Part shown: in pieces, positions 27 through 25,953 of the stretch | Numbering within the stretch: position 1 is the stretch's first letter | How the letters are laid out: every line of letters begins with the position of its first letter | Source of the DNA: a virus | Virus record (IMG/VR): IMGVR_UViG_3300030419_005853 | Coordinates: 1-35,368 of that record | DNA length: 35,368 nt | Reading direction: 5' to 3' (one strand) | Notes under the pieces: model-generated | What the model was told of the DNA's origin: nothing | The model's database searches: none | What the model saw: only the letters and a program-made list of their open reading frames with translations | Made by a program: the position numbers and the translations under genes

Positions 27-3000
27 GTGAAGTTTGCTCATATTAGCGATACTCACATTAAAAATTTAAAATATCATTACGAGTATCGGATCATCTTTGA
101 GCAGTTGTACGAAAAACTGCGAGAAGAAAAGGTCAATTATATTATTCACACTGGGGATGTTGCTCACACAAAGACACAGATCTCCCCAGAGTATGTAGAT
201 ATGTGTTCGCAGTTTTTTGAAAATCTTGCAAACATTGCCCCTACCTATGCGATTTTAGGCAATCACGATGGTAACTTAAAGAATAGTAGCCGTCAAGATG
301 CCTTGACGCCAATTTTTAATGCACTTAATCATCCAAATCTCCATCTCCTGAAGGACTCTGGAGAAACAAACATTGATAATAAATTTTGTTTGAACGTTCT
401 TTCGGTGTTTGATCGTGAAAACTGGATCAAACCAACTAATTCGGATAGAATCAATATTGCCCTTTATCACGGATCGATCAGCAACTGCAAAACAGATGTT
501 GGGTGGGTCATGCTGAACGGTGAAGATACGATGGAGATTTTTGATGGATTTGATTTTGCAATGCTTGGTGATATTCATCGTCGTCAGATCCTTGACGATG
601 CTGGTCGTATCTGGTATGCCGGCAGCACCGTACAACAGAACCATGGAGAAACCAACGACAAGGGTATTCTTATTTGGGATATTCAATCAAAGAACGATTG
701 GAACGTCGAGCCGTTTGTGTTCAAGAATCCAAAGCCGTTCATTACTTTGGAACTCACGCCGAAAGGCCGCATGCCCAAGGGAACGAATGTCCCGGAGGGC
801 GCGAGACTTCGGCTCGTAAGCAACAACAATCTACCATTGAACATAATGAAGCGAGCAATGGATATTGCCAAGCATCGGTTTAAACCAGAGACGGTTACTT
901 TTCTTAACCGTGCAGCTGGTGAGCGTGGTGACGTTAGCGAGATTACCGATACACTTAAAACAGAGAATCTTCGAGATATAAATATTCAAGAAGAATTGAT
1001 GGACGAATATCTCAAAGATTTTCAAGTGGATGCATCGACAATGGATAAGGTATTTGATCTTAATCGTAAATACAAAAAGATAGTTGAAGAAAAGGACGAT
1101 ATCTCCAGAAATGTAAACTGGAAATTATCGAATTTTGAATTTGACAATTTGTTTAATTATGGAGAAAACAACAGTGTTAGTTTTGGCGAACTTAATGGCA
1201 TTACAGGGATTTTTGGGAAGAACTATTCTGGGAAGAGTAGTATTATTGACGCTGTGCTTTGGACTCTTTTTAACACAACCTCGAAAAATGAGCGCAAGAA
1301 TCTCAATGTTATTAATCAGAATAAAGAATCCTGTCGAGGGAAATTAACCATTGTCGTCGGACACCGGGTATATACTATTGAAAGGACAGCAGAAAAGTAC
1401 ATCAAACGCCTAAAGGGAGAAGAAACCCTAGAGGCCAAAACTGATCTTAATTTTGAAGTATATGATGAAGTAGGTGGAGATACGATATCTCTGAACGGAC
1501 TAAGCCGGATTCACACAGACGCGAATATCCGCAGACATTTTGGGGAATGTGAAGACTTTTTGATCTCCTCGATGGCTTCTCAGCATGGCGCTCTCTCGTT
1601 TATTGATGAGGGTTCAACGAGACGTAAAGAGATCATTGCTAAGTTTTTGGATTTAGAAATTTTTGAAAAGAAATTTAAATTAGCAAAAGAGGACTGTACT
1701 GATCTTAAGGGCGCCCTCCGTCGTCTTGAGGCGCGCAATTATGATGAAGAGATTGAGACAGCGTCTATCGAATTGCAAGACAAAAGAGACGAATTAGAAA
1801 CTCACAAAAGTAGATGCGAGGAACTAAAACTAGAAATTGAAAATGTAACAACAGCCTGTGCCGCTCTGAAGAACAGCATCGAAGCAATCCCAAAAGAAGT
1901 GATTAACGTTGTTGATACAAGAAAAAACATTAGAAACAGGCAATCCCAAGTATCATCTTTGGAGGAGTCCAATGAACGATTGTCAATAGAGTTATCGGAA
2001 AAACAAGGGATTATTGCAAAAATTGATGATTATGTATCAAAGATAAATATTGATTCTTTATATAGGCAACAAAAGACTGCTGATGAATTAAAGATGGAAA
2101 GAGCCATTGAACAAGCAAAACACGCGGATTTGATCCAGCAGATTGAAGACATTGAACGTAAATCTAAATTGCTTGATGGGATTCCTTGTGGGGTGAGTTA
2201 TCCTCAATGTAAATTTATTAAAGATGCAAATATTGCTGTTGCAAATCGCCCACACGTTGAAGAACAAGAATCGATTTTAAAAGGCGATCTTGAGAACATT
2301 GAAAAGAAAATTCACAGCATGCGCCCCGATTTTATCGAAGAGCAGGTCAGTAGATATGAAAAGGTGGTTGAAAAGAAATCAATCGCGATAAATGAAATTA
2401 CAGAGATTAATTTGTCTTTTGAGAGAAATCAATCATCGATAGAACGCATTGGGTATGAATTAAAAGAGTTAGAAGAAAAGAAAAAGAAATATGAAGAAAA
2501 TAAAGAGGCCATTGAAAACTTTGAAGAATTTACAACCGAACTTGACACATGTAATTCCAAGTTAGAAAAAGTAGAAAAGCAGTATGCGCGCTGCCAAGAA
2601 AAAACCCTGAATCTCTATAAAGACGTGGGTTCGATGGAACAAAAGGTTGAAAGTATCCAAGATCAAAAACAGGAATATGTAAGTTTACAAGAAGAGTATT
2701 CAGCTTATGACCTCTATATGCGATGCATGCATACGTCTGGTATTGCCTATGATATTATTAAAAGAAAATTGCCAATAATCAACCAAGAGGTTGCAAAAGT
2801 GCTTGCCAATATTGTTGATTTTGAGATCTTCTTTGAGGATTCTGGCAAGAAGTTTGATATATTTATTAAGCACCCTCGTCATGAGCCACGTCCTATTGAA
2901 ATGGCCTCCGGAGCAGAAAAAACTTTGTGTGCCATGGCAATTCGTTTGGCGCTTTTGAGTGTGTCGTCACTACCTAAGAGCGATTTATTTATTCTCGATG

Positions 3001-3176
3001 AACCGGGAACAGCCTTAGATGAAGAAAATATGGAGGGTTTTATCCGCATCTTGGAACTAATTAAAGTGTATTTTAAGAATGTTTTGCTTATTTCACACCT
3101 TGATTCACTCAAAGACTGTGTTGATATGCAAATCGTGATTGAAAAAAAATCAGGATACGCAAAAGTAAGTCAATAG
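27..3176 (+). CDS. SbcD-SbcC (Mre11-Rad50; T4 gp47-gp46) fusion protein
   Basis: A 1049-residue nuclease-ATPase for DNA-end processing and recombination-dependent replication; in T4 the two halves are separate proteins, gp47 (339 aa) and gp46 (560 aa). Residues 1-190 are a metallophosphoesterase: D8 and H10 in ISDTH, D44 in HTGDVAH, N79-H80-D81 in GNHD, H148, and H184 in GDIH. Residues about 370-1049 are an SMC/Rad50-type ATPase: Walker A G397-S404 (GKNYSGKS), long coiled coils, a central Cys pair C721/C728 at the expected zinc-hook apex, an ABC signature near 960 (ASGAEK), and Walker B 987-992 (LFILDE). The start is GTG at 27 with GGAGG at 18-22; the ATG at 25 is followed directly by a stop. 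Fusion of the two subunits in one chain and the C-x6-C hook, in place of the usual C-x2-C, are unusual. Function rests on family motifs. Confidence 0.95.
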   Translation: MKFAHISDTHIKNLKYHYEYRIIFEQLYEKLREEKVNYIIHTGDVAHTKTQISPEYVDMCSQFFENLANIAPTYAILGNHDGNLKNSSRQDALTPIFNALNHPNLHLLKDSGETNIDNKFCLNVLSVFDRENWIKPTNSDRINIALYHGSISNCKTDVGWVMLNGEDTMEIFDGFDFAMLGDIHRRQILDDAGRIWYAGSTVQQNHGETNDKGILIWDIQSKNDWNVEPFVFKNPKPFITLELTPKGRMPKGTNVPEGARLRLVSNNNLPLNIMKRAMDIAKHRFKPETVTFLNRAAGERGDVSEITDTLKTENLRDINIQEELMDEYLKDFQVDASTMDKVFDLNRKYKKIVEEKDDISRNVNWKLSNFEFDNLFNYGENNSVSFGELNGITGIFGKNYSGKSSIIDAVLWTLFNTTSKNERKNLNVINQNKESCRGKLTIVVGHRVYTIERTAEKYIKRLKGEETLEAKTDLNFEVYDEVGGDTISLNGLSRIHTDANIRRHFGECEDFLISSMASQHGALSFIDEGSTRRKEIIAKFLDLEIFEKKFKLAKEDCTDLKGALRRLEARNYDEEIETASIELQDKRDELETHKSRCEELKLEIENVTTACAALKNSIEAIPKEVINVVDTRKNIRNRQSQVSSLEESNERLSIELSEKQGIIAKIDDYVSKINIDSLYRQQKTADELKMERAIEQAKHADLIQQIEDIERKSKLLDGIPCGVSYPQCKFIKDANIAVANRPHVEEQESILKGDLENIEKKIHSMRPDFIEEQVSRYEKVVEKKSIAINEITEINLSFERNQSSIERIGYELKELEEKKKKYEENKEAIENFEEFTTELDTCNSKLEKVEKQYARCQEKTLNLYKDVGSMEQKVESIQDQKQEYVSLQEEYSAYDLYMRCMHTSGIAYDIIKRKLPIINQEVAKVLANIVDFEIFFEDSGKKFDIFIKHPRHEPRPIEMASGAEKTLCAMAIRLALLSVSSLPKSDLFILDEPGTALDEENMEGFIRILELIKVYFKNVLLISHLDSLKDCVDMQIVIEKKSGYAKVSQ

Positions 3177-3186
3177 GAGATGCGAA

Positions 3187-3909
3187 ATGAAACTGTTAAT
3201 AGAGAATTGGAACAAGTTCCTCAGTGAGCAAGAGGGTGCTCCGGAAGAGCAAGGACAACAAAGACAATATAGCAGTAATGATTTTTGCACAGAATATCCG
3301 AACGCCTGCAAGGGTGTTCTTGGAACTCAGAGAGCTAATATGCCTCAAGTGCCAGATGTGGGTGATTTCGCAGCAGATTTAGCAGCACCCCCACCAGAAG
3401 GTATTGAAACCAATGAGCCTGAAAAGATTCCGGATCTCGGACAAGCAACAAAAGCGTATTTAAATTCATCGGATGATGCAGGCGAATGGCCGCGAGGAGA
3501 TCAGGTTGAGGTTAAGGAAATTCCCGGCATAAACCCTTCCGCCCTTACTCCCACTCAGAAAGACACATACATGGATAACGCACTAAAGAAGGTTGCTGCC
3601 GGCGAACAGGCTGTTTCTAAAGGTGGCGGATGGACTCCATGGGATGGCGCCGTGCTGGTTTCGAAAGACAATTACCTATTGGATGGCCACCACCGGTGGG
3701 CTGCTACCATTATCTATAACGATAAACACCCAGAGGATCAAAAGCCGATGACTGTACAAAAAGTGATGATGCCAATTGACCATCTTCTAAAGGTCGCCAA
3801 TGCGTATACCGATGCTGCTGGTGGCACTCGCCACTCTGGTGGCGGTACAACGATGGAAGAGAGCCTTACAGCACAGGCTTTAAAAGAATTTATAGGCACG
3901 AAGGAATAA
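3187..3909 (+). CDS. ParB-like domain protein with capsid-targeting-like N-terminus
   Basis: 240 residues. The N-terminus MKLLIENWNKFLSE resembles the T4 internal-protein capsid-targeting peptide MKTYQEFIAE, with a possible gp21-type cleavage after L-S-E14. Residues about 20-100 are a Pro/Gln/Glu-rich linker that looks disordered. Residues about 110-220 contain the ParB/sulfiredoxin-like core, with the motif LLDGHHRWAA at 164-173, preceded by a predicted strand and followed by helix-rich sequence. In this superfamily D-G-H-H-R lies in the nucleotide/phosphate-binding pocket (CTP in ParB, nuclease or kinase activity in other members). AGGAG at 3175-3179 sets the start. It lies just upstream of the FtsZ-like gene, and a second ParB-like gene lies just downstream of it. 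DNA binding and head packaging are inferred. Confidence 0.7.
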   Translation: MKLLIENWNKFLSEQEGAPEEQGQQRQYSSNDFCTEYPNACKGVLGTQRANMPQVPDVGDFAADLAAPPPEGIETNEPEKIPDLGQATKAYLNSSDDAGEWPRGDQVEVKEIPGINPSALTPTQKDTYMDNALKKVAAGEQAVSKGGGWTPWDGAVLVSKDNYLLDGHHRWAATIIYNDKHPEDQKPMTVQKVMMPIDHLLKVANAYTDAAGGTRHSGGGTTMEESLTAQALKEFIGTKE

Positions 3910-3912
3910 ACA

Positions 3913-5043
3913 ATGTCAGAAGAAAACGATAACAACGATTTTGATTTTGCAGAAGCAGCAGTTGATGAAAACCCTGCAGATCTAAATCCGCCAGATGCTT
4001 CAACAATGGATGATTTTGATTTCATTGAGCACTATGGCGAGGAAGAAGTGGTCACCCACGAAAACCTTCTCCCAGAGAATACGGCAGTCTCTCCGCTAAA
4101 CTGCGCAGTGATTGGCGTAGGGGGAGGTGGCGGCAAAATGGCCAAAGCATTTCTGGATGCTGGGTTTAATCGCACTTTGCTCGTCAATACCACTGCTAAA
4201 GACATTCCTACTGGTGTACCTGATGAAAATGTTGTCTTAATTCCAGATGCAGATGGTATCGGAAAGAACGTTGCTCTCGGCAAATCAGTGTTTGATGCCA
4301 ACAGCGCTGTTGTGGAAGATGCTCTTCGCACAAAGCTCGGAAACGTGGACTGGCTCATTGTGTGTGCCGGTGGTGGTGGTGGCACAGGTTCCGCTGCAGC
4401 TGCACTACACCCAGTACTAGAGCGCTATCTTAAGTCCGTTCAGGCAGAAGGCGACATTGTTTATGTAGTGTCGTGGCCAACGGCACAAGAAAATATTAAT
4501 CCCACAATTAGCAAGAACGCACTTTCGCTTCTTAACGATGTATCAAAACACACACACTGCGTACTTGATAACGAAAGACAAGTTAAGTTACTGCGCGGAA
4601 AGGTCGGAATGTTGGGAATGTTCCCGCTAGCGAATAAGTCATTTGCTAAGCTTTTCGCACAGATTCTTAAATTATCATCAGAGCCGTCACCGATCCAGTC
4701 ATTTGACTCGAAGGATTTGGAAGTGTGCTTAAGAACAGACAAGAGAATGTTTATCGGCTCAACAATGATTCCAAACCCGGCGACCCCAAACCTAGGCTCG
4801 ATGATTCTGCAGAACTGCATGAAACGTTCTCCGTGTCCTCCCCCGAAGGGGAAGCCGAAAACAGGAACGCTTTTATTGATTGCTTCTTCAGAGATGGCAA
4901 ATGATCCAGAAATAAGCAAGCATCTTGACGCCGCAATTGGATACGTCGGAGGGAGAACGGATACTTTATTTTCTGGAGTATACATTAACGATAACGTTCC
5001 CGGGCTGATCGCGATACTATGTATGAATGGGTTAACAACATGA
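3913..5043 (+). CDS. FtsZ/tubulin-superfamily GTPase
   Basis: 376 residues. Residues 1-60 are an acidic, probably disordered extension with two DFDF motifs. The GTPase domain starts at about 62: AVIGVGGGGGKM (65-76) matches the FtsZ N-terminal Gly loop, VNTTAKDI matches the FtsZ INTDAQ region, and CAGGGGGTGS (151-160) is the tubulin/FtsZ signature loop GGGTG(S/T)G. SFDSKDLEV (263-271) aligns with the T7 synergy loop N-x-D-x-x-D, keeping both Asp (D265, D268) with Ser replacing Asn. The C-terminal part (about 290-376) resembles the FtsZ activation domain. It should polymerise with GTP and form filaments in the host; phage relatives by fold include PhuZ and TubZ. It is coupled by an ATGA overlap to the next gene, another ParB-like protein. 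The superfamily assignment is firm; the role in this phage is inferred. Confidence 0.87.
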   Translation: MSEENDNNDFDFAEAAVDENPADLNPPDASTMDDFDFIEHYGEEEVVTHENLLPENTAVSPLNCAVIGVGGGGGKMAKAFLDAGFNRTLLVNTTAKDIPTGVPDENVVLIPDADGIGKNVALGKSVFDANSAVVEDALRTKLGNVDWLIVCAGGGGGTGSAAAALHPVLERYLKSVQAEGDIVYVVSWPTAQENINPTISKNALSLLNDVSKHTHCVLDNERQVKLLRGKVGMLGMFPLANKSFAKLFAQILKLSSEPSPIQSFDSKDLEVCLRTDKRMFIGSTMIPNPATPNLGSMILQNCMKRSPCPPPKGKPKTGTLLLIASSEMANDPEISKHLDAAIGYVGGRTDTLFSGVYINDNVPGLIAILCMNGLTT

Positions 5044-5639
5044 AAAAACTATTTGAAAATTGGAACACATATATCAACGAAAACTTACCTACGACAACGC
5101 GTGTAGTCAAAGGTCCGGCAGAACCGCAACAGCAACAGCAGCCAGATCCAAATGATCCGTTTGGTGGTACTCGCGTCGTCAAAGGCCCGGCAGAGCCGCA
5201 GGATCAAAATAAGACCGCAGCGGCAGTAAAACAGGCAACAGTTAAAGCATCTGCTTTGGCAGCAAAACTGCAGCAGGTACTAAAATCACTACAGGGTGCC
5301 TTGTCTGAAGCTAGGATTAGTTTTGACGATTTAATTGTTGAAACTGGCAACACAAAACAGGGGATTCTTGGCGCCTATCAAGATGTTTTGGATGGGACGC
5401 GAAGCAGAACCCCCGAAGCTCCAATTAAGGTTAATTGGATCGAGGAAGAACAAAAATTCTTGGTTGTAGACGGTTTACACCGATTAGTGGAATTTATCGA
5501 GAAGGGGCAGACATCTTGCTATTGCGAAATTGATTGGAATTCAGGTAGTGGTAAGTGGAAATTGCCCGTCAAAGAAGAGAGACTTAAAAACTTTTCACTA
5601 AATGAGTTGAAAAGAAGTATGAATGGATTAACAAAATAG
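5040..5639 (+). CDS. second ParB-like domain protein with capsid-targeting-like N-terminus
   Basis: 199 residues, starting at ATG 5040, which overlaps the stop of the FtsZ-like gene (ATGA). An in-frame ATG at 5019 is rejected because the N-terminus from 5040, MKKLFENWNTYINE, parallels the MKLLIENWNKFLSE of the gene at 3187. The linker carries a duplicated 11-residue unit TRVVKGPAEPQ and a Gln run. The ParB/sulfiredoxin-like motif is VVDGLHRLVEF (142-152), with D144, H147 and R148; the second His of DGHHR is Leu here. A possible prohead-protease site lies after I-N-E14. Coupling suggests co-expression with the tubulin-like GTPase. DNA association and packaging into the head are inference. The divergent motif makes catalysis less certain than in the upstream paralogue. 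Confidence 0.65.
   Translation: MKKLFENWNTYINENLPTTTRVVKGPAEPQQQQQPDPNDPFGGTRVVKGPAEPQDQNKTAAAVKQATVKASALAAKLQQVLKSLQGALSEARISFDDLIVETGNTKQGILGAYQDVLDGTRSRTPEAPIKVNWIEEEQKFLVVDGLHRLVEFIEKGQTSCYCEIDWNSGSGKWKLPVKEERLKNFSLNELKRSMNGLTK
5097..5201 (+). repeat. internal duplication of an 11-codon unit
   Basis: The residues TRVVKGPAEPQ occur twice in the second ParB-like protein, at 5097-5129 and 5169-5201. The two DNA copies differ at several third-codon positions, so the protein sequence is conserved more tightly than the DNA. The copies are separated by a Gln/Pro/Asp linker. This may be a repeated peptide binding site. Confidence 0.8.
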
Positions 5640-5648
5640 GAGATTACA

Positions 5649-6152
5649 ATGGCTAGACGCAAAAACACAAGAAGGTTTGATCCTCGTTACTTTATGGACG
5701 AGAAGACTGACATTATTAAAGAGGGGTTCACGACAACAGGACCCGATCCTAGCAAAGCGCTGTCTCAACAGCAAATTGAGGCAATCATAAAGTTGAAAGG
5801 CATGGATTGGTGGAAGAAAGCTGGCCCACATATAAATGGGGAGAATATTTTTGACTTTCTCGATCCTGCTTATGCCTCAGAGATTGTGAACTTACAAGAA
5901 AGACTCTCCCCAGAATCAGCGCGGAATGCAATAGAGTTTGCACGCAAAATCGCTGACACTATCCGCCAGCAGGGTGGAAAAATGCATGCCGGTGATCTCA
6001 TGGATCATGGTGTTAGTGGGCAGGAAATACGTAATTTTATCGGAGCTATACAACTAGATCCAACAGTGGGGCAACTCGAACAAGGTCGACCTGACGGAGC
6101 CAAAGTGGTACTGCAGGGTGATCGAGAATTGGCAGTTGTAGAAGCAGCATGA
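5649..6152 (+). CDS. hypothetical protein, RFDPRYF N-terminus
   Basis: 167 residues, not recognised. TAGGAGA at 5637-5643 supports the start. The N-terminus is basic and then reads RRFDPRYFMDE, followed by K-x-x-I-I-K-E-G, which might be a prohead-protease-like site. The middle (about 35-125) is helix-rich; the segment around KGMDWWKKAGPH is the most distinctive. The C-terminal third is less ordered. Its stop overlaps the next start (ATGA), so it belongs to the same operon as the ParB-like and tubulin-like genes. It is possibly a packaged or scaffold-associated protein by context only. Confidence 0.6.
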   Translation: MARRKNTRRFDPRYFMDEKTDIIKEGFTTTGPDPSKALSQQQIEAIIKLKGMDWWKKAGPHINGENIFDFLDPAYASEIVNLQERLSPESARNAIEFARKIADTIRQQGGKMHAGDLMDHGVSGQEIRNFIGAIQLDPTVGQLEQGRPDGAKVVLQGDRELAVVEAA

Positions 6153-6718
6153 AGATTACTAAGTCTAAGTTAAGGGAACTTATCAAAGAAGAGGTAGAGG
6201 CTGTCTTATCTGAAATTGAAGACATGAGCCTTAAGGGTAATGCCGGCGAAGACTTCGCAATTCCAAGTGCTGCTTGGGACAGAGCATTCCGCAAAAACGG
6301 AATCAAGATTTCTTATCATGGACGGATGGGAGTAGAAAGAGACGAGTGGAGTAAAGACAAGGCACAGGACTATAGCGGCATCACTTATTGGCCACTGTAT
6401 CCAGTTAAAGGCGGATACATGGGCGCCTATGGAAGAATTTATAATGCACTTTCAGATAGCGGTGGAGGACATGCTTTGCATCTCGTAGATGCTGCCATCG
6501 AAGAAGCAAAAATGATGTGTGAACGAGGTGAATATGTAAAAACAGGTAGATATGAAACTTCTGGTGTAACTCCCGCCGCATGCAAAAAGATGGGCTGGAT
6601 GACTCCTGCTGGAGATGGTGTAGACGATGTGCGTGAGCTTAACTATTCCGGCGCTGCTGGCGCAGCTAAGAGATCCGCATCGTTATCTGGAAAGAGGGAT
6701 GACGAAGAGCACACTTGA
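6149..6718 (+). CDS. hypothetical protein with KITKSKLRELIKEE-type N-terminus
   Basis: 189 residues, not recognised beyond its N-terminus. It begins MKITKSKLRELIKEEVEA, an amphipathic Lys/Glu helix also found, with variation, on genes at 9126, 15991, 16352, 17502 and 19728. Candidate gp21-type cleavage points are I-K-E and L-S-E. The body contains aromatic and Gly-rich stretches (YWPLYPVKGGYMGAYGRIY) and a helix AAIEEAKMMCERG. The start overlaps the upstream stop. The TGA stop at 6716 is followed by C, and the same frame continues through three codons into the small gene at 6728, so a readthrough form is possible. Confidence 0.65.
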   Translation: MKITKSKLRELIKEEVEAVLSEIEDMSLKGNAGEDFAIPSAAWDRAFRKNGIKISYHGRMGVERDEWSKDKAQDYSGITYWPLYPVKGGYMGAYGRIYNALSDSGGGHALHLVDAAIEEAKMMCERGEYVKTGRYETSGVTPAACKKMGWMTPAGDGVDDVRELNYSGAAGAAKRSASLSGKRDDEEHT

Positions 6719-9125: not shown

Positions 9126-9869
9126 ATGAACATATCCCGCTCTGATTTATACAGAATCATCCTCGAAGAATACGCCAAAGAAGAGGGCATCACATTATCT
9201 GAAAACAAGGCTGATGATTTGCTTAAGTGGCTTCGCGGTGGAGAAAAGCCAGACTGGGTTGACGATGAACGTGAAATTCCAGACCCCCCAGAGGTACCAG
9301 ATGCTCCCCCTGCCGCCGCTGACACAATGCCATTTGGACCTTCGGACATCCCATCGGACGACGCGCCAGAGCGAGATGTTAGCGGCTTCCAAGATCGTGC
9401 CGGTCCACCTTTGGAAGATCAGCTTATGGATCTGATTCAAGGTTTACCACCAGAAGAGGTGGCTGATTTATTTCAGGCAGTATTTGAGAAGATCCCCGGC
9501 GTAGAGCTTGGATCTGGCGAAGATTCTGAAGGGCCGCCCCCCACGGAGTACGGCGGCGAAGAGCTAGAGTTGAGACAAAAACAAGGACGTAGGATCGGAT
9601 ACGAGGAAGGTTTGCAGTTTGAAAACTTAATGGAACTTGTTCGCGAAGTTATTGAGGAAGGACACTATCACGATGTCGATCCTGCATATGATGTAATGAA
9701 GGGAGAACAACCCCCCGGACCAGATGATGAGTTTGATCTGGGTGATATGACAGATGTAGAGTTGGTAAATCAAGCTTGGAAAGATGGAATCGAAGAGATG
9801 ATTGTTCTAGACGGCGAGGGAGATCTTGCAAATCGAGAAGAACTGTTAGCGGCTATGAATGATGTATGA
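9126..9869 (+). CDS. acidic hypothetical protein upstream of terminase
   Basis: 247 residues, very acidic and Pro-rich. The N-terminus MNISRSDLYRIILEEYAKEE is of the Lys/Glu amphipathic type, with I-L-E followed by E. Residues about 45-110 are a disordered Pro/Asp linker. A helical segment FENLMELVREVIEEGHYHD repeats the same amphipathic flavour internally. The stop overlaps the terminase start (ATGA), so translation is coupled. It occupies the place where T4 has gp16 (small terminase), but it does not resemble gp16. Function unknown. Confidence 0.6.
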   Translation: MNISRSDLYRIILEEYAKEEGITLSENKADDLLKWLRGGEKPDWVDDEREIPDPPEVPDAPPAAADTMPFGPSDIPSDDAPERDVSGFQDRAGPPLEDQLMDLIQGLPPEEVADLFQAVFEKIPGVELGSGEDSEGPPPTEYGGEELELRQKQGRRIGYEEGLQFENLMELVREVIEEGHYHDVDPAYDVMKGEQPPGPDDEFDLGDMTDVELVNQAWKDGIEEMIVLDGEGDLANREELLAAMNDV

Positions 9870-11449
9870 GTTTCCAATTAGACAAAAAGCAAAGAGTAAA
9901 AGAAATAGTAAAGTGTGGTAAAGATCCCTCCTATTTCCTAAACACGTACGCCCGCATATCACACCCGATGCATGGTCTTATCTTATTTGATACTTACAAG
10001 TTTCAAGATGATCTTTTAAAAGACTTTAACGACTATCGGTTCAACGTTATATTAAAGGCTCGGCAGCTGGGTATATCAACAATCACTGCTGGGTATATTG
10101 TCTGGATGATGCTATTCCATCGTGATAAAGCAATTCTTGTCATGGCAACCAAATTTGCAACAGCAGGAAACTTGGTTAAGAAAGTTAAAAACATTATGCG
10201 CAATTTGCCGGATTGGTTAAAGATCGCCACAATTACGGTTGATAATAGAACTTCGTTTGAGTTATCTAATGGTTCGTCTATTAAGGCGGCATCCACCTCT
10301 GGCGATGCAGGTCGTTCCGAAGCTCTATCTCTTTTGGTGTTGGATGAGGCTGCACACATTGAAGGATTAGAAGAGTTGTGGACTGGTTTGTATCCTACAT
10401 TGTCAACCGGTGGTCGTTGCATTGCACTGTCCACTCCAAACGGAGTCGGAAATTGGTTTCATAAGACATGTGCTGATTCAGAGTCGGGAACAAACAATTT
10501 TAATTTAACCACTTTACCGTGGGATGTTCATCCAGATCGCGGGGAAGAGTGGTATAAAAAAGAAACCAAAAACATGTCAAAGCGACAGATTGCGCAAGAG
10601 TTGGAATGCAACTTCAACACATCCGGAGAAACAGTTATAGATCCCGAATGCATGGAGTGGCTCTTGGGTAATACAAAGGAACCGAAATACAGGACCGGAT
10701 TCGACAGAAATTTTTGGATTTGGGAAGAATTCGATCCAACCTGCAATTATCTGATGGTTGCAGATGTGGCCCGCGGTGACGGCGCCGACTATTCAGCTTT
10801 CCATATCGTAAAATTAGAGACCTTAGAAGTGGTAGGAGAATATCAAGGAAAGCCAACATTGGATATGTTTGCCAACTTGCTTAATCAGGTTGGTAGAGAA
10901 TTCGGAAACTGCATGCTGGTGGTTGAGAACAATAACATTGGTTATTCTGTATTGGATAAACTAATTGAGTATGCGTACCCTAATCTATATTATTCAATTA
11001 AATCTACACACGAATATATTGAACAATACCAAGCAGAAACAAGAACCAGCGCAGTACCCGGATTTTCGACCACAATGAAGACTAGACCTCTCATTGTGGC
11101 AAAATTGGAAGAATTCATTAGAAATAAACTAATTAAAATATATTCATCTCGCACAACTAACGAAATGAAGACATTCATCTGGAGGAATGGTAAACCACAA
11201 GCAATGAAAGGTTATCACGATGACCTTATAATGGCTCTTGCAATTGCGTGCTGGGTTAGAGATACTGCACTACAAGCAAATGCAAGAGAATTAAATTATC
11301 AAAAAGCCTTTGTGGATGCAATATTTACTAGCAAAACAACCATGAATACACAAATTAAAGGACAAGAGGGCTATAAAAAAGACAATATCCTTGATAGAAT
11401 GAATGAGGCTAAAGGTTTTTACGAGCAATACAAATGGATTATAAAGTGA
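9866..11449 (+). CDS. terminase large subunit (T4 gp17-like)
   Basis: 527 residues; T4 gp17 has 610. This is the packaging motor ATPase and headful nuclease docked on the portal. The Walker A region is ARQLGIST (65-72), where the usual Lys of GK(S/T) is Ile and a Lys sits directly before the motif, a known TerL variation. Walker B is LLVLDEAAHI (156-165, D160/E161). The C-terminal RNase H-like nuclease shows D300 in ADVARGDG, E354 in VVENNN and D452/D453 in HDDLIMALA, matching the gp17 acidic triad. The start overlaps the upstream gene (ATGA). It is followed directly by the portal gene; in T4, genes 18 and 19 lie between them. Confidence 0.95.
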   Translation: MSFQLDKKQRVKEIVKCGKDPSYFLNTYARISHPMHGLILFDTYKFQDDLLKDFNDYRFNVILKARQLGISTITAGYIVWMMLFHRDKAILVMATKFATAGNLVKKVKNIMRNLPDWLKIATITVDNRTSFELSNGSSIKAASTSGDAGRSEALSLLVLDEAAHIEGLEELWTGLYPTLSTGGRCIALSTPNGVGNWFHKTCADSESGTNNFNLTTLPWDVHPDRGEEWYKKETKNMSKRQIAQELECNFNTSGETVIDPECMEWLLGNTKEPKYRTGFDRNFWIWEEFDPTCNYLMVADVARGDGADYSAFHIVKLETLEVVGEYQGKPTLDMFANLLNQVGREFGNCMLVVENNNIGYSVLDKLIEYAYPNLYYSIKSTHEYIEQYQAETRTSAVPGFSTTMKTRPLIVAKLEEFIRNKLIKIYSSRTTNEMKTFIWRNGKPQAMKGYHDDLIMALAIACWVRDTALQANARELNYQKAFVDAIFTSKTTMNTQIKGQEGYKKDNILDRMNEAKGFYEQYKWIIK

Positions 11450-15680: not shown

Positions 15681-16004
15681 ATGGAACTTTTAACATTCAT
15701 ATTGTGTGCCTACGGGCTCACTCAAATTCTTGTTTATGGAAAAGTATTAGACAAGATTAGGCCGAAGAAAGGCAAACTAGGAGAATTAGCGAATTGCCCA
15801 ATGTGCATGGGTTTTCATGTGGGTTGGTTTTTATTGTTGCTTTCTCCGTTTACAGAACTATTTAGTTTTGATGTAAGTATAACTAATTTTTTCCTCCTTG
15901 CATGGCTATCATCTGGAACATCTTATGTGCTGAATATGGTCTTCGGGGACTCAGGGATACAGTATTCAACAAAAGCGGAGCCAACAAAAGATGAAAATCA
16001 CTAA
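15681..16004 (+). CDS. small three-helix membrane protein with CPMCMGFHVG motif
   Basis: 107 residues with AAGGAGAAG upstream. Three hydrophobic segments are visible: about 3-20, 44-60 and 66-88. Between the first two is C-P-M-C-M-G-F-H-V-G, the pattern of the DUF1360 family of small membrane proteins (C-x2-C-x-G-x-W/H). The C-terminus is polar. Function in phages is unknown. It is isolated among head genes and overlaps the next gene by 14 bases. An ACTATTTA at 15857 falls in its coding region and is probably chance. Confidence 0.65.
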   Translation: MELLTFILCAYGLTQILVYGKVLDKIRPKKGKLGELANCPMCMGFHVGWFLLLLSPFTELFSFDVSITNFFLLAWLSSGTSYVLNMVFGDSGIQYSTKAEPTKDENH

Positions 16005-16287
16005 ATCTGAACTTAATAGAATAATTGCCGAAGAAGTCGAAAAAGTTACCACGCAACAGGCAAAGAAACAAATGCACAGCATGCGCCAAGGCAAAGGAAG
16101 TGCTGTTGCTGCTGGTATAAATGACCAAGAAAGAGCAATAATGATGAAGGTTTTGAAATCTCTACAAGCCGCGGCCGCCAAAGGAAACATTGCTAGCGGC
16201 GTTGTTCCACAAAAATTGGAACAGCTTTTGGCTGTATTAGAAAAAATCGTTGGTCAACAACCTCAAACCCAAGGAGAACAAGGATGA
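15991..16287 (+). CDS. small protein with KITKSELNRIIAEE-type N-terminus
   Basis: 98 residues. The N-terminus MKITKSELNRIIAEEVEKV is closely similar to that of the gene at 6149 and contains I-A-E, identical to the residues preceding the cleavage point of the T4 internal-protein peptide (F-I-A-E). The rest is Ala/Gln-rich helix. It starts inside the upstream membrane-protein gene. It is likely a small internal head protein by analogy; no enzymatic motif is seen. Confidence 0.6.
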   Translation: MKITKSELNRIIAEEVEKVTTQQAKKQMHSMRQGKGSAVAAGINDQERAIMMKVLKSLQAAAAKGNIASGVVPQKLEQLLAVLEKIVGQQPQTQGEQG

Positions 16288-16891: not shown

Positions 16892-17509
16892 ATGGCAAAA
16901 GTACTTTTACGAGAATATTATGAATTATGCGAAGGTGGCGTTTGCCAAGACCTACTAACAGAAGCAGAGAAGCGCTTTGTTGCAGAAGGTGGTATGATTC
17001 TTTCAGGAATTATGCAAAAATCAGACACTCAGAATGGAAATGGTCGCGTATATCCGCACAAAGTCCTAATGCGGGAAGTCGAAAACTACAGTAAACTTGT
17101 TAAAGAGCGCCGCGCCTTGGGCGAGCTTGACCATCCCGATGATTCAGTTATAAATCTTAAAAATGCCTCACATATGGTTACCGACGTTTGGTGGAACGGT
17201 AAAGATGTGATGGGAAAAGTTCAGGTTCTTAACACTCCTTCTGGAAATATTCTTCGTTCACTTGTTGAGTCGGGCGTGAAATTGGGAATCTCTTCTAGAG
17301 GAATGGGTTCCGTTAGCGAGAGCGCCGGCGCCACCATGGTAGAGGATGATTTTCAGCTTATATGTTTTGATTTCGTTTCTGAGCCATCCACTCCCGGAGC
17401 GTTTATGATGAAAGAGGCAAAAGATTTAACAAAATCAAATATTTTCACCAAATCAGATAAAATAAACAGACTACTTAATGACATAATAGGAGATTTCAAT
17501 AATGCGTAG
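16892..17509 (+). CDS. prohead maturation protease (T4 gp21-like)
   Basis: 205 residues; T4 gp21 has 212. This is a serine protease with the herpesvirus-assemblin-like fold that matures the head by cutting after (L/I)-x-E. The catalytic His is H81 in GELDHPDD. The Ser is in GISSRGMG (S134/S135), and an Asp follows in CFDFVSEPS (D160). The N-terminus MAKVLLREYYELCEGG ends in L-L-T-E followed by A, a possible autocleavage site. TAGGAGA precedes the start. Its presence makes the many L/I-x-E N-termini in this window testable substrates. Confidence 0.93.
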   Translation: MAKVLLREYYELCEGGVCQDLLTEAEKRFVAEGGMILSGIMQKSDTQNGNGRVYPHKVLMREVENYSKLVKERRALGELDHPDDSVINLKNASHMVTDVWWNGKDVMGKVQVLNTPSGNILRSLVESGVKLGISSRGMGSVSESAGATMVEDDFQLICFDFVSEPSTPGAFMMKEAKDLTKSNIFTKSDKINRLLNDIIGDFNNA

Positions 17510-24111: not shown

Positions 24112-25953
24112 ATGGCTGGAATAATTGATAGATTAACCGAAGGAGTGGTTAATCGTGATATGCAGGCCGAAGGTTCTGCATTACTTAATAAGTGGGAGAG
24201 AACTGGTCTTCTTGAAGGACTGGACGATTCCCGTGGCCGTCAGACAATGGCGCGCCTGCTTGAAAACCAAGCAAAGGAGCTTCTCCGCGAGCAAAGCTCC
24301 ATGAGCGCTGGTGACGTCGAAGGCTTTGCCGCCGTCGCGTTCCCCATCGTTCGTCGTGTGTTCGCAGGATTGATCGCAAACGATCTCGTTTCCGTTCAAC
24401 CGATGAGTCTACCAAGTGGTCTTATCTTCTTCCTTGACTTCGTATTCTCACCCGATTTGGGTGATGCAAGTCCGGGAGCTGCTAGATTTGGCAACTCTGC
24501 CAACAAGTCAATCTACGGTACTAACCAAGTTGGTTCCCAGATTACTGGTGGTGTCGATCTGGTCGCTACTGACGGTGCTGATCTTTCTGGTCCTCGTACC
24601 AGTGGTCGTGGTTACGCATATGCGTCCGCAACTGGCTCTGTTCAGGTGGCCGATCACGCAACAGCTGGTGGTGCAACCGGTGCTATGGTTGTGGATCAGT
24701 GGCTGATGGGCGGTGGCAACACGGTAACGTACGCTACCAACGCTCAGCTTAAGAAGATTGATTATGATCCCGATCTTGTTGCTTTGTCTGGAAGTTCTAC
24801 GAGCTATCGTGTTGTTCTCATCGAGGCAACCAAGTCCGAGATTCACGACAATGGCAATGACACAGACGTGGATTTCGACAACCTTAGCGCATTCGCTATC
24901 AGTGGCGCTTCCTTGAACACGTTCTTGGGTGCTGTTACTGATGATGCCCACTGTACTCAGATTCGTCGCTTAACATCAGTTATTAGCGCTAGCGATTCTA
25001 CCATGGGTCATGATGTTGTTCGATTCGCTGCTATCGGTCTTGCAACCAATATCGCTTCGGCTTCTGCTGCTGGCGTTCTTGGTATTCAGGCTCCGATTCG
25101 GGACGATCTTACTAACGCTAGCGCCTTGGGTGCTGTTATTGGTCAGACCGAATGGGCCCTTGAGGGTACAACGCAGATCCCAGAGATCGACATCAAGGTG
25201 GACAGCATTGCTGTTACCGCGCAAACCAAGAAGCTCAAGGCTAAGTGGACTCCGGAGTTAGGTCAAGACCTTAACGCCTACCACAACCTTGATGCAGAGG
25301 TGGAGCTTACTTCAATCCTCTCTGAGCAAATTGCTCTTGAGATTGATCGTGAGATTCTTGCGGACCTTGTTAACGGTGCAACCGCTGCAACATACTACTG
25401 GGCTCGTTCCCCCGGTATGTTCTTGGACCGCACTACTGGTGTTGAGGTTGGTGCTAGCTCTGCTGCCCCTGACTTCACCGGTACAGTGTCCGAGTGGTAT
25501 GAAACTCTGGTCGAGACCATCAACGATGTGTCCGCTCAGATTCACCGCAAGACCCTGCGTGGTGGCGCTAACTTCCTCGTGGTTTCACCTGAAGTTGCCA
25601 ACATTCTTGAGTTCACTGCTGGATTCCGTGCTTCCGTCACTGCTGACGATGAGACCGGAACTGTTGGTGCAGTCAAGGTTGGTTCGCTGAGTAAGAAGTT
25701 CGACGTTATCGTTGATCCTTACTTCCTGCGTAATGTGGTCCTTGTCGGCCGTCGCGGATCTTCTTTCCTTGAAAGCGGATATGTGTACGCACCGTATGTA
25801 CCACTGCAAACCACACCTACCATCTTCGGACCAGAAGACTTCGTGCCCAGAAAGGGCGTGATGACTCGTTATGCCAAGAAGATGGTTCGCCCCGATATGT
25901 ACGGCTTGGTCGTCGTTCGCGGTATGCTTGGTGAGTCAGGCGCTACATCCTAA
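24112..25953 (+). CDS. major capsid protein (T4 gp23-like)
   Basis: 613 residues; T4 gp23 has 521. Matches to gp23 are visible at the N-terminus (LLNKWERTGLLEGL, LLENQAKELLRE), at NDLVSVQPMSLPSGLIF, in the core about 355-420 (VDSIAVTAQTKKLKAKWTPE, QDLNAYHNLDAEVEL) and at the C-terminus (YVYAPYVPLQTTPTIFGPEDF, MTRYAKKMV). Gp21-type maturation could occur near L-R-E61, matching the gp23 cleavage after residue 65. The extra length lies in residues about 130-350, a Gly/Ser/Thr/Asp-rich insertion probably forming a surface domain. Codons are strongly biased to highly expressed choices (CGT, GGT, GCT, AAC). It shares the scaffold promoter. Confidence 0.95.
   Translation: MAGIIDRLTEGVVNRDMQAEGSALLNKWERTGLLEGLDDSRGRQTMARLLENQAKELLREQSSMSAGDVEGFAAVAFPIVRRVFAGLIANDLVSVQPMSLPSGLIFFLDFVFSPDLGDASPGAARFGNSANKSIYGTNQVGSQITGGVDLVATDGADLSGPRTSGRGYAYASATGSVQVADHATAGGATGAMVVDQWLMGGGNTVTYATNAQLKKIDYDPDLVALSGSSTSYRVVLIEATKSEIHDNGNDTDVDFDNLSAFAISGASLNTFLGAVTDDAHCTQIRRLTSVISASDSTMGHDVVRFAAIGLATNIASASAAGVLGIQAPIRDDLTNASALGAVIGQTEWALEGTTQIPEIDIKVDSIAVTAQTKKLKAKWTPELGQDLNAYHNLDAEVELTSILSEQIALEIDREILADLVNGATAATYYWARSPGMFLDRTTGVEVGASSAAPDFTGTVSEWYETLVETINDVSAQIHRKTLRGGANFLVVSPEVANILEFTAGFRASVTADDETGTVGAVKVGSLSKKFDVIVDPYFLRNVVLVGRRGSSFLESGYVYAPYVPLQTTPTIFGPEDFVPRKGVMTRYAKKMVRPDMYGLVVVRGMLGESGATS

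Follow-up and report, generated by a model that had tools for sequence, protein, structure and literature searches.

Well-studied phage tubulins are tied either to jumbo phages that form a nucleus (PhuZ) or to plasmid-like phages (TubZ), while the related FtsZ binds its partners via a conserved tail motif at its C-terminus. In proteins of this kind the T7-loop aspartates complete the active site only between filament subunits. PhuZ and TubZ have a C-terminal helix, H11, and a tail; in the PhuZ of phiKZ the tail after H11 is acidic and there is no N-terminal extension (PMC3678025). Positioning and capsid transport have their precedent in PhuZ (PMC9067925). The subject here is a tubulin-like protein, Tub, encoded in IMG/VR virus record IMGVR_UViG_3300030419_005853, whose full 35,368 bases (positions 1 to 35,368 of the record) are referred to as the window. 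The tub gene is flanked by genes for two proteins, ParB1 and ParB2, and the original prediction, made from the sequence, took the three as one system for segregation or positioning of DNA. The centre of the observation is Tub, not the trio, and it is more than a chance motif. The reading preferred here, with a probability of about 0.55, is that the locus brings together two separate things: a cytomotive Tub GTPase, and independent head cargo of ParB fold that is probably injected. The genes are as follows.

3187..3909, + strand: ParB1, 240 residues, a targeting-like N-terminal peptide and a single probable ParB/Srx-fold domain with the motif DGHHRW (open reading frame; phrog_2859, expect value (E) 2e-10)
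3913..5043, + strand: Tub, 376 residues, predicted GTPase of the tubulin/FtsZ superfamily
5040..5639, + strand: ParB2, 199 residues, a targeting-like peptide and the motif DGLHR, ParB identity unproven (ATGA overlap; homologues L073/L074, L075)

The description of three adjacent coupled genes holds, with one amendment: the start of ParB2 is most likely at 5040 and not 5019, the ATGA there overlapping the tub stop at 5041-5043 and giving 199 residues. The ratio of nonsynonymous to synonymous polymorphism (pN/pS) is about 0.15-0.28 for the three genes, that is, all are under purifying selection.

The tubulin-like protein and its relatives

Tub matches the Pfam Tubulin model PF00091 (E 2.6e-10, 41.3 bits) above the curated cut-off of 33, and the FtsZ equivalog model TIGR00065 with E 1.3e-11 and 44.4 bits, far below the 295.2 that would class it as an equivalog. 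Its sequence matches in the PDB are FtsZ, CetZ and c-st TubZ, with FtsZ the best by profile (E 6e-9). Structure prediction of the single proteins, a check proposed with the original prediction, gave a tubulin fold for Tub and a less certain outcome for ParB1 (below). The Tub model, built from 32 relatives, has a predicted local distance difference test score (pLDDT) of 87 and shows a complete two-domain fold to which TubZ, CetZ and FtsZ align with Z of 27-32 over 270-310 residues. The near full-length matches are TubZ (4ei7; Z 32.2 over 310 residues), CetZ2 (31.9) and FtsZ (28.7); in the structural alignment Tub and FtsZ are only about 20% identical. Bacterial FtsZ and archaeal CetZ, which have the complete fold in common with Tub, are thus its best matches in sequence, and TubZ of Bacillus plasmids and phage c-st its best match in fold. 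Three stretches of the protein matter most.

4009..4035, + strand: DDFDFIEHY, a short motif in the disordered N-terminal tail (F35 present in 35/35 family representatives; pLDDT <50)
4369..4392, + strand: GGGGGTGS, the tubulin signature loop, residues 153-160 (invariant or nearly so in relatives)
4696..4722, + strand: QSFDSKDLE, the T7 (synergy) loop with D265 and D268 (both aspartates invariant and aligned to the D-x-x-D of E. coli FtsZ)

The signature loop and the D-x-x-D motif had already led to the middle gene being called FtsZ/tubulin-like, and both proved to be conserved in relatives. Judged by its modelled fold and conserved catalytic motifs, Tub is a genuine member of the superfamily with predicted GTPase activity, and since the G-loop and both T7 aspartates are kept across relatives, one would expect its GTPase site to be completed between the subunits of a filament. 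The layout is its own. The last strand spans residues 365-374 of 376 and in the model the chain ends two residues later with nothing beyond, so that, unlike PhuZ and TubZ, Tub has no H11 or tail after the core. Its tail is at the N-terminus, where the model has low confidence and the chain is probably disordered around the family motif DDFDF[VI]xxY; in FtsZ the conserved peptide is at the C-terminus. PhuZ (phiKZ gp39, 201phi2-1) is, like Tub, a phage tubulin-fold GTPase with a G-loop and T7 aspartate, and gives a weak profile match (phrog_4733, E 2e-4). Among named proteins, the nearest homologue found is gp138 of Bacillus phage G, annotated as a putative FtsZ-like cell division protein, which both the Tub profile (E 5e-16) and the divergent Tub from locus L139 (20% over 95%) match; superfamily and large phage size are common to both, while identity is very low and the phage type differs. 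In a tree the L139 group and phage G are nearest to Tub, whose branch is separate from those of phiKZ PhuZ and E. coli FtsZ; the deep branching is unreliable at such divergence.

A two-pattern scan of IMG/VR yielded 372 Tub relatives, on records of up to 205 kb, and three contigs in Flavobacteriales metagenome-assembled genomes carry others. With a pN/pS of about 0.16 and an identity of 79-80% (compared with 64% for the neighbouring SbcCD and 87% for the terminase large subunit, TerL), tub is a strongly conserved core gene in a large and mainly marine clade of T4-like phages, and Tub itself a relative of FtsZ and tubulin that had not been recognised before. A limited search of the open-access literature met no description of such a T4-like tubulin clade, which is weak evidence of absence, and single-sequence tblastn of Tub against INPHARED phages and against PLSDB plasmids gave no match. 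The closest isolates by TerL are Flavobacterium phage immuto (47%) and Microcystis phage Mel-JY01 (44%); Tub was looked for in both and not found. A bacteroidotal host is likely for the Tub-bearing phages, probably among the Flavobacteriia. Lineages differ in where tub is: some have it in the interval from SbcCD to terminase and others behind the portal block, and in further ones it separates the major head protein from the head-tail adaptor or has a phoH-type gene nearby. As the gene moves and yet stays conserved, it has a function of its own.

The partners of described phage tubulins were also sought. In contrast to PhuZ phages, no chimallin was detected by model phrog_4795 in nine records of Tub phages, including ones of 203-205 kb (records of unstated completeness, in which a diverged shell protein could escape), with phiKZ positive as control. 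In contrast to TubZ systems, no TubR-like helix-turn-helix (HTH) neighbour was identified, although an HTH adaptor lacking sequence similarity could escape, and near tub there is no array of partition-site iterons such as tubC of TubZ, only short scattered repeats apart from a 22-nucleotide junction described below.

Further tubulin-like sequences were noted in passing. A divergent Tub group scores about 120-135 bits against the profile (L139 3703-4839, L140 10076-11212, L195 4574-5707, G025 89490-90557), and the L139 member has a C-terminal extension that the main group is without. At L077 7148-7987 a protein of 279 residues starting VIGLGAAGCNIADQF has an FtsZ-like N-terminus without the GGGTG loop and perhaps represents a second, degenerate FtsZ-like family; weak PF00091 echoes occur at G002 153674-153886 and G008 37715-37927.

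The ParB-like neighbours and their N-terminal peptides

Both flanking proteins had been called ParB-like, a label that has stood for ParB1 and not for ParB2. The model of ParB1 is moderate (pLDDT 62). Foldseek gave nothing below 1e-3, the first four matches being ParB at E 0.1-0.4, and a second look was therefore taken with VIA-align, in which the best 20 rows are all ParB, Noc, KorB, PadC, Srx or SbnI, with Z of 5.0-6.5; a ParB/Srx fold is thus supported at the level of the model. Searched as a profile against the PDB, the DGHHRW family returned only weak SerK echoes, at E 0.26 and above. This phage family is substantial, with at least 258 relatives confirmed in a scan, and besides DGHHRW it has a conserved glutamine, mostly within a P-T-Q motif. 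The low-confidence model shows no HTH, no ParB or HTH Pfam model matched, and after the ParB-N-like domain there are only about 30 low-confidence residues. Because neither an HTH nor a C-terminal dimer domain follows that domain, ParB1 is not a canonical ParB partition protein.

For ParB2 the ParB-like label is unconfirmed because it derives from the string DGLHR; among library models only SerK gave an echo, below threshold (E 0.10), and single-sequence tblastn against INPHARED phages found no match. Three copies of its body could be aligned (L073/L074, L075), the L075 protein having a different N-terminal module. When the ParB1 and ParB2 families were compared by profile, only the N-terminal 17 residues aligned, which bears out the observation that both begin with a matching peptide.

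3187..3228, + strand: targeting-like peptide of ParB1, MKLLIENWNKFLSE, predicted cleavage after E14 (LSE) (modular on 12 unrelated bodies; T4 gp21 L/I-x-E rule, PMC9026906)
3682..3699, + strand: DGHHRW motif of ParB1 (invariant in 17 relatives together with Q124)
5040..5081, + strand: targeting-like peptide of ParB2, MKKLFENWNTYINE, predicted cleavage after INE (peptide statistics; ParB1/ParB2 profile comparison)
5469..5483, + strand: DGLHR motif of ParB2 (invariant in 3 homologues)
5649..6152, + strand: cargo-type gene with a second targeting-like peptide, RKNTRRFDPRYFMDEK (peptide on 11 unrelated bodies)
6149..6718, + strand: cargo-type gene with a third targeting-like peptide, MKITKSKLRELIKEE (peptide on 80 unrelated bodies)
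16892..17509, + strand: T4-type prohead protease, which would be expected to cleave the peptides (phrog_207, E 1e-55)

The capsid-targeting sequences of T4 are short N-terminal peptides cut by gp21 according to an L/I-x-E rule (PMC9026906). The likeness of the two N-termini to these, pointed out at the start, has gained support, for L/I-x-E peptides are common to unrelated proteins here and a gp21-type protease is in the record: KLLxENWxxFLxE precedes 12 mutually unrelated bodies, MKITKSxLxxIIxEE 80 and RKNKKFIDPRYFMDEK 11. Peptides of this kind begin 208 of 1853 sense genes compared with 0/2392 antisense open reading frames and 2/5119 internal windows, and since they are near-absent from antisense frames and protein interiors they are more than chance. 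As with the T4 internal proteins (IPI-III, Alt), a short N-terminal L/I-x-E peptide is joined to unrelated cargo in the company of a gp21-type protease (PMC9026906); the sequence differs from that of T4 (KLLxENWxxFLxE and two sister types). All this is consistent with the peptides being head-targeting signals, by analogy with T4, and their carriers would then be packaged and injected.

The peptide types recur in the window genes 5649-6152, 6149-6718 and 15991-16287 and in many related loci, and three unrelated types on about 100 unrelated bodies apparently make up a vocabulary of head-targeting signals. Some DGHHRW proteins have targeting-like peptides at both N- and C-terminus (L083 9647-10633 and its relatives L084, L087, L093 and L096), which recalls T4 Alt, a protein processed at both ends (PMC9026906).

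The ParB/Srx fold binds ATP, GTP or CTP across varied proteins (PMC12704722). The closest parallel to ParB1 is perhaps DdrB of phage P1, which has a ParB-like domain and is packaged in the head without a ParA partner; ParB domains of such polyvalent proteins share with ParB1 the ParB/Srx fold and a place beside structural genes in phages (PMC5512222). ParB1 is in contrast small and single-domain, and its entry signal would be a T4-type peptide.

The trio and the cassette island

The three genes are not kept together. Of the Tub loci, 74 have flanks of 2 kb or more on each side; a DGHHR gene is nearby in 19 of them, a DGLHR gene in three, and both in one, the window itself, and 55 have no DGHHR within 2 kb. 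Conversely, no Tub was seen in 18 of the 23 DGHHRW records sampled; some of these exceed 100 kb, though some are fragments, and in two records with a divergent Tub the DGHHRW and tub genes are about 15 kb apart. The co-occurrence of the trio in relatives, by which the original prediction had proposed to be judged, was thus not found, and the idea of a three-gene segregation system has given way: the ParB1 family is common in records in which no Tub was found, and ParB2 looks like a cassette.

That last point comes from the 3′ end of tub. The window has two copies of a 22-nucleotide junction repeat, and because they enclose ParB2, its adjacency to tub is best explained as that of a cassette.

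5022..5043, + strand: junction repeat copy 1, the 3′ end of tub, TATGAATGGGTTAACAACATGA, containing the ParB2 start (repeat search, copy counts)
5618..5639, + strand: junction repeat copy 2, at the 3′ end of ParB2 (repeat search, copy counts)

The tub 3′-end sequence TATGAATGGATTAGCAACATGA recurs before successive cargo genes on one strand (54 forward and 0 reverse, against 0-2 for shuffles), and away from tub 21 of 26 junction copies are followed by a peptide gene. Besides the window, junction repeats precede cargo genes at L070, L079, L113 and L119. The simplest account, taken from the sequence pattern, is a cassette island whose members would exchange by recombination via the short common junction; it is possible that the repeat is a translation-coupling or promoter element.

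The contig has T4-type head genes (terminase, portal, prohead protease, major head protein, neck and tail sheath), and the small-gene island with ParB1, Tub and ParB2 is located between the first two genes below. PADLOC defence models gave no match for five island proteins.

27..3176, + strand: SbcD-SbcC (gp47-gp46-like) fusion, 1049 residues, upstream border (Metallophos and AAA_23/SMC domains; phrog_77, E 2e-48)
9866..11449, + strand: terminase large subunit, downstream border (phrog_2, E 1e-52)
24112..25953, + strand: major head protein, gp23-like (phrog_138, E 4e-71)

The fusion of SbcD and SbcC into a single 1049-residue protein is seen in relatives too.

Possible roles

Under the preferred reading Tub would most likely polymerise in the infected cell as a GTP-dependent filament, its flexible N-terminal DDFDF..Y tail binding or recruiting a partner, and the filaments may position phage DNA factories or move new heads, so doing part of the jumbo-phage role of PhuZ for T4-like phages without chimallin. 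Separately, the N-terminal peptide would take ParB1 and ParB2 into the prohead, where the gp21-type protease would cut it after L/I-x-E, and both proteins would be injected together with the phage DNA. ParB1 may then act early in infection as a nucleotide-dependent ParB/Srx-fold factor, in counter-defence or nucleotide/DNA processing as proposed for P1 DdrB, and cassettes would shuffle around tub through recombination at the 22-nucleotide junction copied from the tub 3′ end. Several points weigh against this reading. The argument for positioning draws on the analogy to PhuZ and TubZ and on where tub lies in head and tail gene blocks, and several lineages have tub near a phoH-type gene, not head genes. 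The support for the ParB1 fold is modest (pLDDT 62; Z of about 6). Of eight DGHHR sites in 24 tub-bearing records seven are within 1.2 kb of tub and the other is 4.9 kb away, and control of host division by Tub is nearly as compatible with the findings.

That control of division is the main rival, though we think it unlikely: Tub would take over or block host division by co-polymerising or competing with host FtsZ, and cells would enlarge or stop dividing. FtsZ being the best profile match fits this, as does a protein end like that of FtsZ, without the H11 of PhuZ, and the conserved tail motif resembles FtsZ partner binding, though at the opposite terminus. A dominant-negative decoy, however, need not keep the catalytic and T7 residues, all of which are kept, while the identity to FtsZ is low and in some lineages tub is within head and tail genes. 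Its location directly between major head protein and head-tail adaptor in several lineages would suit a non-cytoskeletal GTP-binding factor of head or neck maturation that forms no long filaments, an explanation made very doubtful by the invariance of aspartates that complete an active site only between filament subunits and by the lineages with tub outside the head genes.

The proximity of DGHHR genes to tub favours the segregation model, in which ParB1 and ParB2, injected, bind the incoming DNA and couple it to Tub filaments in a type-III-like segregation or positioning system. It was also seen in L139, L140 and L195, loci found via DGHHRW and not via tub, where the DGHHRW gene is about 0.9 kb from a divergent tub, and ParB1 does appear to have a ParB-N fold. 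The DGHHR genes near tub are upstream or downstream of it in differing arrangements, and because the tub-bearing records are related the independent events number perhaps three or four. That all cargo genes sit at tub, which would explain the proximity, was considered and is weakened by a 203-kb relative that has a second peptide-gene array some 90 kb away from tub. Against coupling stand the single locus in 74 with both genes, the 55 without a nearby DGHHR, the DGHHRW records without Tub or with the 15-kb gap, the lack of an HTH in the ParB1 model and of an iteron array near the genes, and the junction repeats that explain ParB2. We regard the segregation model as very improbable. Since seven of the eight sites are near tub, an adaptor version is kept in mind for ParB1, with head-delivered ParB-fold proteins loading nucleotide-dependently onto entering DNA as adaptors for Tub filaments, unlike ParABS or TubZRC; it too seems highly doubtful. 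The recurrent proximity may nevertheless reflect a functional link between ParB1 and Tub, and ParB1 is perhaps more than chance cargo.

If the preferred reading is true, the prediction of injected early effectors from sequence would gain from the cargo island, its three targeting-like peptide families and its repeated cassette junction. The inverted layout of Tub, with a proposed partner-binding tail at the N-terminus and no C-terminal helix, represents a testable new lineage. With Tub belonging to the core genes of an abundant clade of T4-like phages in which no chimallin is detectable, the cytoskeletal organisation of infection would be wider than thought, and would have arisen not only with the phage nucleus.

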